A DNA stretch of 24,454 bases, taken from the IMG/VR virus record IMGVR_UViG_3300027760_000079, positions 1 to 24,454 of that record; one strand, 5' to 3'. Numbering within the stretch: the first letter of the stretch is position 1; each line of letters starts with the position of its first letter. Below, piece after piece: positions 2,372-21,882 of this stretch. The DNA comes from a virus. The notes beneath the pieces are model-generated. The model saw only the letters and a list, made by a program, of their open reading frames with translations, had not been told where the DNA came from and did not search any database. A program made the position numbers and the translations under genes.

Positions 2372-2698
2372 TTACTGCTCGGGCTTGTCGTCTTCGCCTG
2401 CCGTCGTCGCCTTGGCGCCGAACTGGTAGCCGAAGACCACGAGCACGATGGACTTAATCAAGTCGAACAGGCCGCGCCTGAGGTCGTCGCTCATCAGCTG
2501 CACGTCCCACGAGACCATGACGTCCGCGACGAACACGCCCAAGAAGACCGTAAGGACGAGCGCGACGAACCGCGTGAGCCACTCACGTTGACCCAGCGTC
2601 TGCGGGATGATGCTGTTCACGTACCAGACCAGAGCGCCGACGACCGCGACGCTTAGGACGACGCCCGCAATCATGACCCACGCGTCGCCGTGCAGCAT
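2372..2698 (-). CDS. Holin-like membrane protein, three segments, 108 aa
   Basis: The ATG at 2698 overlaps the hub stop (TGATG). Three hydrophobic segments are clear: about 8-27 (VMIAGVVLSVAVVGALVWYV), 44-63 (FVALVLTVFLGVFVADVMVS) and 78-94 (LFDLIKSIVLVVFGYQFG). The C-terminus is short and charged (AGEDDKPEQ). Length and three-helix topology match class I holins such as lambda S (about 107 residues), which form lethal holes for endolysin release. No endolysin gene lies next to it in this window, so the lysis role is probable rather than certain. It is the last gene of the structural operon. Confidence 0.6.
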   Translation of the reverse strand: MLHGDAWVMIAGVVLSVAVVGALVWYVNSIIPQTLGQREWLTRFVALVLTVFLGVFVADVMVSWDVQLMSDDLRRGLFDLIKSIVLVVFGYQFGAKATTAGEDDKPEQ

Positions 2699-18685: not shown

Positions 18686-20067
18686 CAGATGCCTCCGGGG
18701 AGCGTAGAAGGTGTAGTCGTCGGCCGCACGGTGCGCCCAAGACGCTCACGCTCGGACCGGACCTCGGCTGCCCGCGTAGGCGCAGGCAGTTCGAGCGCGG
18801 ACCGAATCGCCCGCTCGTCCTCGGCCGTGGGAGTCAGGACGCCAGCGGAGAGGAGCGACACGACGTCGCCGACCTTCTCCACCCAGAGCGAAGACCTGAT
18901 GCCCGAGTACGTCAGGCGCGGCAGCTGGTCGAGCGGCATCGGGCCGATGTTCGCATTGACGATGGCGCGCACGTAGGAGCTAAGCCCCTCGGCCAGCCAT
19001 TGACACAAGTCGCCCGCCATCTGCGCTGCGAGCTCCGCGTGAACCTGCGCTGTAGCGTAGGCGCCAGACGAGCCGCTGGAGCCCATCGCGAGGAACTGCA
19101 CATAGAACGCCTGCAGAATCTCGCGCTCGATGTCGCTGACCACCGAGTTGATGGGGTACGCGCCACCGCTCGCCGACGTCGATTCAAAGGAGAGCGACGC
19201 CCACGATGGCAGCACGAGCGCCGACTCCTCGTGCGAGGTGTACCGACGCAGGACGCGGAGCAGCTCGTCGCGCGCAGCCTCGTACTCTTGCTGCGAGGGA
19301 GCCGTGCCACGCTGACGCGCCAATGCGTCCTCGTCGATGGTGACGGTAGGAACCGGCACCGCGTACCTCTGAACGAGCACGTTGCGCAGGTTGGTCGCGC
19401 GTCGGTAGTCGCTCGCGAGGGGCTCGACCTGACGCAGCAGGCCCACGCCCTCGACACCCTCGGAGAGCGAGGGCCAGACGAGATGCACAAGCCGCTCGTA
19501 GGGGATGCGGACCGAGCCAACGCTGGACAGGCCGTAAGGCTCGCGCTGCCACTGGTCGACAGCGACGATGCGCCGTCCCTCGTAGACCCACTGTCGCACG
19601 CTCGACTGGTCGCGCGGCTCAAGGTCGATGTACGTGGTGCCCTCGTAGGGGTAGGCCACCATCTCCGCGAGGGCAAAACCGTAGAGCGCGCCGGTCAGGA
19701 GCTGACGCATGCGCGTCTCCCACGACGGCAGGCTCAGCACTCGACCGTCCCACTCGATGACCGGGGAGGCGTACCCACCGAGACCGAGCGTGCGCCGCAC
19801 GACCTCAGCCGCAGCCTCAGACGCAGGCGAGTCGGGCGCAGCTGCGACATCCCACGTGGCCTGCGTCGCCAGCCCGAGCAGCGCTTGAGCGCCGACTGCG
19901 CAGGGAGCGCAGCGCATCGCCACACGATACGCAGCGATGCGCGGGGCGAGTTGGACGAGGCGTAGGTTGGTCTCGCCGTCATTGACCGGCAGGCTTTGCA
20001 CGCCCACGCCACGACCGTCGACGGCCTCGGGCGCGCTGTACTTGCTGACCTGTACGGAGAGTGCCAT
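18685..20067 (-). CDS. Portal protein (Mu gp29 / DUF935-like)
   Basis: The start is the ATG at 20067 with AGGG eight bases upstream; the longer frame to 20136 runs through the inverted-repeat region and is rejected. The 460-residue protein shows the DUF935-type portal pattern: a region like YGFALAEMVAYPYEG (about 129-143), then an IPYERLVHLVWPS segment, EGVEGVGLLRQVEPLASDYR, and long helices toward the C-terminus. Portals form the twelve-subunit ring at one capsid vertex where TerL docks and the tail later attaches. Position after terL and before the protease is canonical. The stop overlaps the protease start (TGATG), which should help keep synthesis in proportion. Confidence 0.9.
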   Translation of the reverse strand: MALSVQVSKYSAPEAVDGRGVGVQSLPVNDGETNLRLVQLAPRIAAYRVAMRCAPCAVGAQALLGLATQATWDVAAAPDSPASEAAAEVVRRTLGLGGYASPVIEWDGRVLSLPSWETRMRQLLTGALYGFALAEMVAYPYEGTTYIDLEPRDQSSVRQWVYEGRRIVAVDQWQREPYGLSSVGSVRIPYERLVHLVWPSLSEGVEGVGLLRQVEPLASDYRRATNLRNVLVQRYAVPVPTVTIDEDALARQRGTAPSQQEYEAARDELLRVLRRYTSHEESALVLPSWASLSFESTSASGGAYPINSVVSDIEREILQAFYVQFLAMGSSGSSGAYATAQVHAELAAQMAGDLCQWLAEGLSSYVRAIVNANIGPMPLDQLPRLTYSGIRSSLWVEKVGDVVSLLSAGVLTPTAEDERAIRSALELPAPTRAAEVRSERERLGRTVRPTTTPSTLPGGI

Positions 20068-20087
20068 GAGCGGCACCCTAGCACAGC

Positions 20088-20101
20088 GCGTTAGAAAACG
20101 C
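20088..20101 (-). promoter_or_regulatory. Small AT-containing hairpin upstream of the portal start
   Basis: GCGTT (20088-20092) and AACGC (20097-20101) form a 5-bp stem with a 4-base loop about 20 bases upstream of the portal ATG. No T-run follows it on the minus strand, so it is not a simple terminator. It could affect portal translation or mark an RNA processing site. I see no convincing -35/-10 pair here. Confidence 0.25.
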
Positions 20102-20104
20102 ACG

Positions 20105-20201
20105 CCCCCGCCAAGACACGCACGGTCAGTGCTCAAGGCGCCCAGCGGGACCGTCTACCGATGGTCTGGCCGGGACTCCGCGAGCCTTGGCTTGGCGGGG
20201 G
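20105..20201 (-). repeat. Long-range inverted repeat / possible structured RNA before the portal gene
   Basis: The 140 bases between micropeptide 2 and the portal gene (20068-20207) hold no ORF I can support. They contain a perfect 11-bp inverted repeat, CCCCCGCCAAG at 20105-20115 and CTTGGCGGGGG at 20191-20201. Nested inside are CAAGGC (20134-20139) pairing with GCCTTG (20184-20189), and CCAG/CTGG with ACC/GGT around 20142-20169. Together these could fold into a branched hairpin in the transcript. It might be an attenuator, a processing or packaging signal, or a small RNA. GC-rich DNA makes short stems cheap, but the 11-bp perfect arm is notable. Confidence 0.45.
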
Positions 20202-20207
20202 AGACTC

Positions 20208-20273
20208 TCAGATGATGCTGAACAGGCCGCCGTGGCAGGCGATGATGACGATCTTGAGCATGATGGCAGTCAC
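20208..20273 (-). CDS. Micropeptide 2, 21 aa, hydrophobic
   Basis: A GTG at 20273 overlaps the stop of micropeptide 1, and GGAGG inside the end of that gene lies six bases upstream, a correct distance. An alternative ATG is four codons later. The product includes IMLKIVIIACHGGLFSII and is hydrophobic with one Lys. It resembles micropeptide 1: a hydrophobic-Lys-hydrophobic run, then a Cys and His close to Gly-Gly and a Leu. This suggests a diverged tandem duplication. Function unknown. Confidence 0.55.
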   Translation of the reverse strand: MTAIMLKIVIIACHGGLFSII

Positions 20274-20338
20274 AGGGAACCTCCGCAGCTGTGGGCGATG
20301 ACCTTGAAGACGATGATGAGCGACGTGAACGAGACCAT
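20270..20338 (-). CDS. Micropeptide 1, 22 aa, hydrophobic
   Basis: A near-ideal Shine-Dalgarno sequence (TAGGAGGG) ends five bases before an ATG at 20338, giving a 22-codon frame that begins MVSFTSLIIVFKVIAHSC and ends with Gly-Gly-Ser-Leu. Residues 4-15 form a short hydrophobic segment interrupted by one Lys. The ribosome site is among the strongest in the window, which argues for real translation. The stop TGA overlaps the start of a second similar micropeptide (GTGA). No known family is recognised; a membrane-active or regulatory leader peptide are both possible. Confidence 0.6.
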   Translation of the reverse strand: MVSFTSLIIVFKVIAHSCGGSL

Positions 20339-20363
20339 GGGACCCTCCTAGATTGGCCGGGGG

Positions 20364-20498
20364 CTAGGCCAGAGTCAGCACGCGCACCGTGAGCCCATCC
20401 CACGACACGCGGTCGACTCGCCGGACTCGGGCCGCCCCCGAGGTCAAGCTACCACGTTGCCCGAGCGCGTCAAGCTCAGCGCACGTCCATCGGGTCAT
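20364..20498 (-). CDS. Hypothetical 44-aa protein
   Basis: An ATG at 20498 opens inside the last 23 nt of terL, and the frame runs to TAG at 20364-20366. The product is basic, starts MTRWTCAELDALGQRG and ends in a beta-like stretch (DGLTVRVLTLA). Its size and place near the portal faintly recall small gpW-type head-completion proteins, but it is shorter and I see no decisive motif. The Shine-Dalgarno site is weak. It could be a real coupled gene or a chance ORF in otherwise densely packed DNA. Confidence 0.4.
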   Translation of the reverse strand: MTRWTCAELDALGQRGSLTSGAARVRRVDRVSWDGLTVRVLTLA

Positions 20499-21882
20499 GC
20501 TCGACGCGTCGACGCTCAGGAACTGCAGGAGTTGCCTCGCGCCGCGTCGGGTCGGGCAGATACCACAGCACCTCGCGCACGGCATACCGCAGCGTGTCGG
20601 CGTGGTGGTCGTGCGTCCCGTCCTTGGCAGGTCGACCAGGTGCGCGGTCGTCCCAGCGATAGCCGGTCATGGCCTTGGCGAGTGTGCGTTTGCTGGCAGG
20701 CGCTCGGATGCCAGCGTCAAAGAGCGCACGGTCGACCGTCAGAGCGCCGCGCTCGAGCGCCAAGTTCACCCGCGTACAACCGCTGACGATGTCCCGCCGT
20801 TCGGGGTCGCGCTCGATTCGGGGCATGATGCCCAGCCCCTTGGGAGGCGACAGCGCCACGAGGTCGAGGTCGGCGACGCCGGTCTGCGCCGAGCGCGCGC
20901 TGCCTGCAGGGTCGGCCACGACGGCATCGAGCGGGATGCGCTGGCTGCCCTGCTGCCACAGTCGCCGAGGCGTGCACTCGATGGAGAGGCGCGCGAGGAA
21001 GTCGGGCAGCGTCTCGTCGTCGGGCGCCCACTCTCGGGTCACATGCCACCGACCGCGCGTGAGCTCGACGAGGAGCAGCGCGCACGGATGACGCAGGCCG
21101 AAGTCCATCGCAAGCATGGTCCGCATGTAGCTGTAGTCGACCAGCTCCTGCGTCACGCACTTCTCGGGCGCCCACGCGTGAAAGACCGACCCAACCGGGG
21201 GCAACGGCCTGTTCTCGACCAGCGCAGCGAAGTCACGGTCGCTCAGCGTCTCACGCATGCGCTCAAGCCATCCTGCCCCGAGGTGCTGCGCGTTCTCGCT
21301 GCTCTGCGGTAGGTAAGCCTCGCCGCCTATCTCCCGCGTTCGTTCTACCCACCACGCAGGCTCGACCGGGATGCCACAGGTCACGACGACGGGCCGCTGC
21401 ATCTGTCCGCGCTGGTCGGCCACAGGTACACGAGCACGCGACCGCGCCACGTCGAGCACGTCGGGCCGCAGTACCTGGCACTCGTCCACGAGGACGGCAT
21501 GCGCGTTGAGACCCTCGATAGGTGATGAGCCGGGGCCAGAGTTCGCCGGGGTGTCGAGGTGAGCCAAGAGCAGCCGCGACCCTGAGGCCCATACGAACGC
21601 CTGCTCTGACGCCGCATAGGTTACCGACGAGCCCGCGAGCAGGCCGTGCAGATGCGGTAGATGCACGTCACGGAGACGTCTGAACGTGTCCATGCCGACG
21701 ACCACCAGCGCCCCGGGCCGAGTCTCGCAAAGAAGGATGGCGAGAGCACAGAGCGCGAGTGACTTGCCGCTGCCCAAGCCACCACGGACCGCCGCTGCGT
21801 CTGATGGCCATTCACCCGACAAGCCAGCTCGGAGGAACTCGGCCTGCCACGGCAGCGGGTCAAGCTCGCTGATGCGAGGCAT
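20476..21882 (-). CDS. terL: Terminase large subunit (TerL), packaging ATPase-nuclease
   Basis: The 468-residue protein has the two-domain layout of phage packaging motors. The N-terminal ATPase carries a Walker A motif at residues 33-41 (RGGLGSGKS), Walker B with catalytic Glu at 130-135 (VLVDEC, Glu134) and a coupling motif near 165-172 (VVVTCGIP). The C-terminal RNase H-like nuclease has its first acidic residue at Asp260 (MLAMDFGLRHP), a second in VVADPAG near 328, and the last in the HDHHAD motif near 432. It docks on the portal, pumps DNA into the prohead and cuts the concatemer. The ATG at 21882 is chosen because MPRISELDPLPWQAEF precedes a normal N-terminal helix; no strong Shine-Dalgarno site is seen, so coupling to the upstream gene is likely. 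Confidence 0.95.
   Translation of the reverse strand: MPRISELDPLPWQAEFLRAGLSGEWPSDAAAVRGGLGSGKSLALCALAILLCETRPGALVVVGMDTFRRLRDVHLPHLHGLLAGSSVTYAASEQAFVWASGSRLLLAHLDTPANSGPGSSPIEGLNAHAVLVDECQVLRPDVLDVARSRARVPVADQRGQMQRPVVVTCGIPVEPAWWVERTREIGGEAYLPQSSENAQHLGAGWLERMRETLSDRDFAALVENRPLPPVGSVFHAWAPEKCVTQELVDYSYMRTMLAMDFGLRHPCALLLVELTRGRWHVTREWAPDDETLPDFLARLSIECTPRRLWQQGSQRIPLDAVVADPAGSARSAQTGVADLDLVALSPPKGLGIMPRIERDPERRDIVSGCTRVNLALERGALTVDRALFDAGIRAPASKRTLAKAMTGYRWDDRAPGRPAKDGTHDHHADTLRYAVREVLWYLPDPTRREATPAVPERRRVEHDPMDVR

Follow-up and report, generated by a model that had tools for sequence, protein, structure and literature searches.

Several small membrane peptides and phage accessory proteins invite comparison with the locus described here. 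Among the type I toxins, IbsC has 19 aa and ShoB 26 aa; peptides such as IbsC can exert their effect at the inner membrane, and a stretch of 15 residues is enough for IbsC toxicity if at least 10 of them are hydrophobic (PMC8309996). Morons and superinfection-exclusion proteins such as SieA of P22 and Ltp are optional, patchily distributed and likely membrane products (PMC10883804, PMC3952083), and global small-protein catalogues (GMSC, PMC11364881) hold short conserved ORFs that are overlooked by routine annotation. The tandem genes pepA and pepB share features with all of these. Like IbsC, ShoB and TisB (PMC8309996), their products are shorter than 60 aa, have a single hydrophobic stretch and would be expected in the inner membrane, but they are encoded by two translationally coupled genes with strong Shine-Dalgarno sequences, end in a conserved Cys/Gly-Gly motif, have no antisense promoter-like site in a strict scan and show no sequence relationship to these toxins in the searched libraries. 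As with SieA and Ltp, the presence of the pair is optional and patchy, but pepA and pepB sit between terL and the portal gene and are known here from sequence alone. In contrast to the catalogued small proteins, they are coupled to each other and their mobile context is defined.

The pair lies in the window, the whole 24,454-nucleotide stretch of viral DNA that was analysed. From terL to the portal gene, in the direction of transcription, the following features were assigned:

20476-21882, minus strand: terL (PHROGs terminase large subunit, E 1.4e-16)
20446..20473, minus strand: promoter-like TTGACG-N17-TAGCTT, directly after the terL stop
20359..20439, minus strand: RNA A, a structured leader element with predicted folds, between the promoter-like site and pepA
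20344..20349, minus strand: Shine-Dalgarno sequence of pepA, AGGAGG, 5 nt upstream of the ATG
20270..20338, minus strand: pepA, a 22-aa hydrophobic micropeptide, MVSFTSLIIVFKVIAHSCGGSL (ATG 20338, stop ending at 20270)
20280..20284, minus strand: Shine-Dalgarno sequence of pepB, GGAGG, 6 nt upstream of the GTG, within the Gly-Gly codons of pepA
20208..20273, minus strand: pepB, a 21-aa hydrophobic micropeptide, MTAIMLKIVIIACHGGLFSII (GTG 20273, stop ending at 20208)
20105..20201, minus strand: RNA B, a conserved element bounded by inverted repeats, placed after pepB and before the promoter-like motif of the portal
20075..20103, minus strand: portal promoter-like motif GTGCGT-N17-TAGGGT, 7 nt upstream of ATG 20067
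20067 to 18685, minus strand: portal, likely ATG at 20067 (Pfam Portal_Mu, E 4e-22; PHROGs portal, E 2e-34)

The initial annotation had described two tiny frames with a GTGA overlap at 20208-20338 and named no strand; both frames are present on the minus strand, where the pepA stop and the GTG start of pepB overlap by these 4 bases. The portal gene probably starts at ATG 20067 rather than at the mechanical TTG 20136, with a spacing of about 140 nt from pepB. The ribosome sites had been counted among the best of the window, and rightly so: their anti-Shine-Dalgarno duplex energies are -10.7 kcal/mol for pepA and -10.2 kcal/mol for pepB, an equally good duplex is found at 0.4% and 1.1%, respectively, of the 727 ATG/GTG codons of the minus strand, and a stronger site precedes only one of 22 gene starts compared (the start at 1368). 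In a first-order Markov model of the gap, at least one comparable ORF arose in 4.9% of 20,000 draws, and a comparable tandem pair in 0.015% (~1.5e-4).

Relatives were collected by terL searches of viral contigs, which yielded about 60 related contigs, mostly 66-100% identical, and peptide-pattern searches contributed further ones (L057/L103, L059/L098 and L110); most are short contigs, drawn from a limited number of metagenomes. In total 59 terL-portal gaps of 53 to 1318 nt were compared, that of the window and those of uncultivated relatives. pepA is present in 16/59 and pepB in 20/59, while 39/59 hold neither; pepB occurs without pepA in L012, L103, L020 and L098, but pepA without pepB in none of the 59 gaps. 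Since near-identical contigs are among them, the numbers of distinct DNA versions, 8 for pepA and 11 for pepB, are the better measure. The exact 4-base overlap is retained in 16 of 16 pairs, pepA measures 63 or 69 nt including the stop, and length differences in either gene are always multiples of three. The products are MFALVVKFSVLAIHICGGSL and MTAIVVKAFVLFGCNGGLYGLLA (or MTAIAIKALVLFGCNGGLYGLLG) in L095 and L110, whose terL shares about 75-79% identity with that of the window, and the overlap is again present. Looser pepA and pepB patterns run against viral contigs found nothing beyond the same group and L110. Neither the pepB pattern nor terL relatives were found in bacterial and archaeal genomes, so we name no host and no prophage. 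Among cultured phages the best terL is about 25% identical (Kagunavirus-like phages) and the portal about 26% identical in two mycobacteriophages, values too low to be informative for the gap.

The pattern of substitution among these relatives bears directly on translation. For each pair of sequences the base changes were kept, their positions were randomised in 5000 draws and the outcome was scored with BLOSUM62. The true frame beat 5000/5000 randomisations for pepA, with 21 changes, and likewise for pepB, with 29 (P<0.0002 each), where the sequence pairs share some ancestry and are only roughly independent; the five other frames, which serve as the control against general bias, gave P values from 0.07 to 0.99 in the same test. 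Between the pepA versions of L019 and L095, 8/8 base changes are silent, including a six-fold serine switch from AGC to TCG, and the silent changes among the versions comprise serine switches between TCC, AGC and TCG. Such frame-specific conservative substitution argues that pepA and pepB are real, translated genes. The reading in which the DNA is conserved for a role as RNA or DNA, with incidental reading frames, could draw on the conserved structured RNA elements that flank the region, but a conservation limited to one frame of six per gene, together with silent changes that include the serine switches and with length changes that stay in frame, makes it barely credible.

Within the codons the second position is nearly invariant, and the first varies in the hydrophobic core, exchanging V, I, L and F, which points to selection on hydrophobic character plus the conserved ends. 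The latter read H-x-C-G-G-S-L in pepA and T-A-I...K...C-(H/N)-G-G-L in pepB. Note that the conservation of Gly-Gly in pepA may in part derive from the pepB ribosome site, which is made of the same bases; the G-rich stretch that forms it is retained in all loci with both genes. The search for short ORFs with Shine-Dalgarno sites and synonymous-biased change in relatives, proposed with the initial annotation, was thus positive, and a relative that keeps the DNA with broken frames was not seen among the 59 gaps. It had also been remarked that annotation normally misses such genes, in agreement with the usual length cut-offs, which would skip genes of 20 residues; as the present case illustrates, genes of this size can be established using metagenomic relatives alone.

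Both peptides share the layout initially ascribed to them: the residues are for the most part hydrophobic, a single Lys stands about midway, and the C-terminus is of the Cys-(His/Asn)-Gly-Gly type. Of the proposal that they represent a conserved duplicated micropeptide, the first part holds, as relatives keep both frames, whereas the origin of one from the other by duplication is weakly supported by their alignment (P=0.02-0.15 against composition shuffles). All variants of pepA and pepB have 20-23 aa, a GRAVY of 1.3-2.0, a net charge of +1 and a best 19-residue mean of 1.36-2.15, and are far smaller than SieA or Ltp. The conjecture that the products are membrane-active is plausible for peptides of this hydrophobicity, although with a Lys, a His and two Gly among its 20 residues such a stretch makes a marginal transmembrane helix. 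A lipobox was considered for pepB (LIAC) and set aside: the window version has IIAC, L095 and L110 have LFGC, and none fits in pepA. Neither peptide matched Pfam, the window peptides found no match in PHROGs (best E=0.15, for a variant), and the pepB consensus none among 50,697 phage records; pepA and pepB hence represent a family to which Pfam, PHROGs and deposited phages offer no counterpart. Because neither has a database relative, our reading of their function relies on composition and context.

The main rival to that reading is that pepA and pepB are membrane-depolarising type I toxins of the Ibs/Sho kind, silenced by an RNA that perhaps stems from the same gap. Their size and composition fit IbsC (19 aa) and ShoB (26 aa; PMC8309996). 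Hydrophobicity, a length under 60 aa and a potential helix in the membrane are features that they share with this class, and the terL-portal gap is rich in structured RNAs. The opposite strand, however, has no promoter-like site from 19950-20600 in a strict scan, which also misses the likely forward promoter; the RNA A type beside the pair varies, and RNA B may accompany it or be missing, as in L095 and L110; and the strong Shine-Dalgarno sequences suggest high, unrestrained expression. On balance we consider a toxin function unlikely.

The SHP peptides of Rgg/SHP quorum sensing are hydrophobic, measure about 20-23 aa and contain a Lys as well as a GG close to the end, features in which pepA and pepB are similar to them. 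Given this likeness the pair might encode precursors of secreted signals, comparable to streptococcal SHP pheromones or phage arbitrium peptides, with the Cys-Gly-Gly tail in the mature signal. The gap holds no Rgg/AimR-type receptor gene, and no regulator gene adjoins pepA and pepB within it, where they are flanked by terL and RNA A on one side and by RNA B and the portal gene on the other. A tandem coupled pair in a phage structural region likewise differs from SHP, and conservation extends to the N-terminal ends (TAI in pepB), where it would be needless in the part of a precursor that is cleaved off. A signalling role thus appears quite improbable.

The distribution of the pair among relatives reveals a further property. 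On a tree of portal proteins (57 rows), its presence or absence changes at least 12 times. Identical portals are accompanied by different cargo, the pair in L005 and two other RNA elements in L003, L004 and L041. The terL/portal DNA of L005 and L025 is 75% identical, yet their pepA agrees in 65/69 and their pepB in 65/66 positions, and for L020 and L025 terL/portal identity reaches 93-95%, yet their pepB agrees in only 57/66. With cassette identity at odds with terL/portal identity, the comparison argues that pepA-pepB is an accessory cassette of the terL-portal gap that is exchanged between lineages; like a moron, it is patchily present at a fixed site among close relatives. General recombination in intergenic DNA can also bring about exchange near the gap, with no value of the cargo involved.

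These data also weigh against the initial suggestion of a regulatory leader for the portal gene, in which the peptides would control it by attenuation or translational coupling. Although the pair lies upstream of the portal gene on the same strand, with strong ribosome sites and RNA structure on both sides, its association with the portal is not a fixed one: it is absent in 39/59 gaps, some of them beside identical portal proteins, and it comes and goes along the portal tree. pepB and the portal are set apart by about 140 nt and by another conserved promoter-like motif, apparently the portal's own, and what is conserved in the peptides is the sequence of their ends rather than a run of codons. 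We regard a leader function as very improbable, still more so than signalling.

The motif in question, GTGCRT-N17-TAGnnT, occurs once in the window and is found 6-7 nt upstream of the portal start in 53/59 gaps in its strict form and in 4 more in a looser one, which suggests a leaderless portal mRNA from its own promoter with an unusual -35 element. On the terL side, 20446-20473 is the only match on either strand of the window to TTGAC-N17-19-TA[GT]nnT (also written TTGAC-N17-TAnnnT). A similar TTGACG-type sequence is present in many relatives, including cassette-free ones. As a strict promoter scan listed neither the terL-side site nor the portal motif, we infer both at the level of a consensus backed by conservation.

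RNA A shows compensatory double changes in 10/24 predicted pairs of its main hairpin across 12 diverged relatives. Besides the window it is carried by L012, L019-L025, L085, L089, L095 and L110, mostly directly 3' of terL, with or without micropeptides, and a conserved GGCGAGTCAA stands beside the covarying hairpin. Since it also occurs in micropeptide-free relatives, RNA A is not a dedicated pepA leader; it is a candidate for a new phage RNA class. In RNA B double changes affect 6/28 predicted pairs, and its structure is moderately supported by them. A search of the gap, RNA A and RNA B included, and of the relatives' loci against Rfam returned no family, only chance-level snoRNA matches. The GGTAGAC loop of RNA B was considered as tRNA-like and dismissed, ARAGORN being negative in all 12 sources.

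Taken together, we favor, with a probability of roughly 0.6, a reading of pepA-pepB as a coupled accessory cassette for inner-membrane peptides that serve superinfection exclusion, host takeover or counter-defence. The cassette would be carried by a group of uncultivated GC-rich phages, with the terL-portal gap as a slot for optional cargo. Transcription would probably start at the sigma70-like site directly after terL and run through RNA A, and the strong Shine-Dalgarno sequences would drive translation of pepA and then of pepB, the latter aided by the GTGA overlap. Both peptides most likely insert into the host inner membrane, given that they are mostly hydrophobic, have 20-23 residues, a Lys in the middle and an end of the Cys-(His/Asn)-Gly-Gly type. 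The optional nature of the cassette, its swapping between lineages and the other non-structural cargo of its slot make an accessory membrane effect, directed at the host or at rival phages, the likeliest role; the host, a rival phage or lysis timing could each be the target. The sequence comparison itself documents conservation of the kind expected for translated genes, the coupled layout, the modular occurrence and the exchange between lineages; membrane insertion, transcription start and biological role are what we infer for the pair in this way.

In relatives the gap is otherwise occupied by a membrane-type protein of 114 aa, by additional structured RNAs or by other small genes, so that this constant interval between two core genes of packaging presents itself as a site where tiny membrane genes and structured RNAs are traded; the same approach could reveal cargo slots in further uncultivated phages. 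A far more ambitious reading, to which we give limited credence, takes the gap for an exchange slot dedicated to conflict of phages with each other or with the host, in which a new structured leader RNA is paired with interchangeable cargo, pepA-pepB for a new class of two-component membrane micropeptide effectors that act together via their conserved Cys-Gly-Gly ends, and a CRISPR-repeat-like RNA of relatives for an alternative counter-defence cargo.

This last element, RNA C, lies in the gap of L003, L004, L017, L025, L027 and L028, with a single copy in L020/L098. It consists of two hairpin repeats ending in GGCCCCATTGA(A/G)(G/A)C that are exactly 72 nt apart with a variable 37-38 nt between them, resembles CRISPR repeats and is flanked by a stem of GCGCGTCTC and GAGACGCGC. 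The in-between stretches had no protospacer match within the loci compared, and RNA C could be a mini-CRISPR, an RNA anti-CRISPR (compare PMC10651486) or a mere structured RNA. RNA D, in the gap of L003, L027, L080 and L083, forms a strong hairpin (CCCTCGGGCGCATAAGCGCTCGGGGGTTTGCCTTTTT) and resembles an sRNA equipped with a terminator of its own. In the window, positions 2372-2698 (minus strand) encode a 108-aa membrane-type protein with a 76% identical homologue in the terL-portal gap of L016, L019 and L042, and cargo of the slot therefore also occurs elsewhere in the genome. In a distant clade (L034-L043, L097, L101, L104 and L105) the gap contains a conserved lipoprotein-like small gene (MGRFILAALVVAGCSAQWQSS...) along with others.
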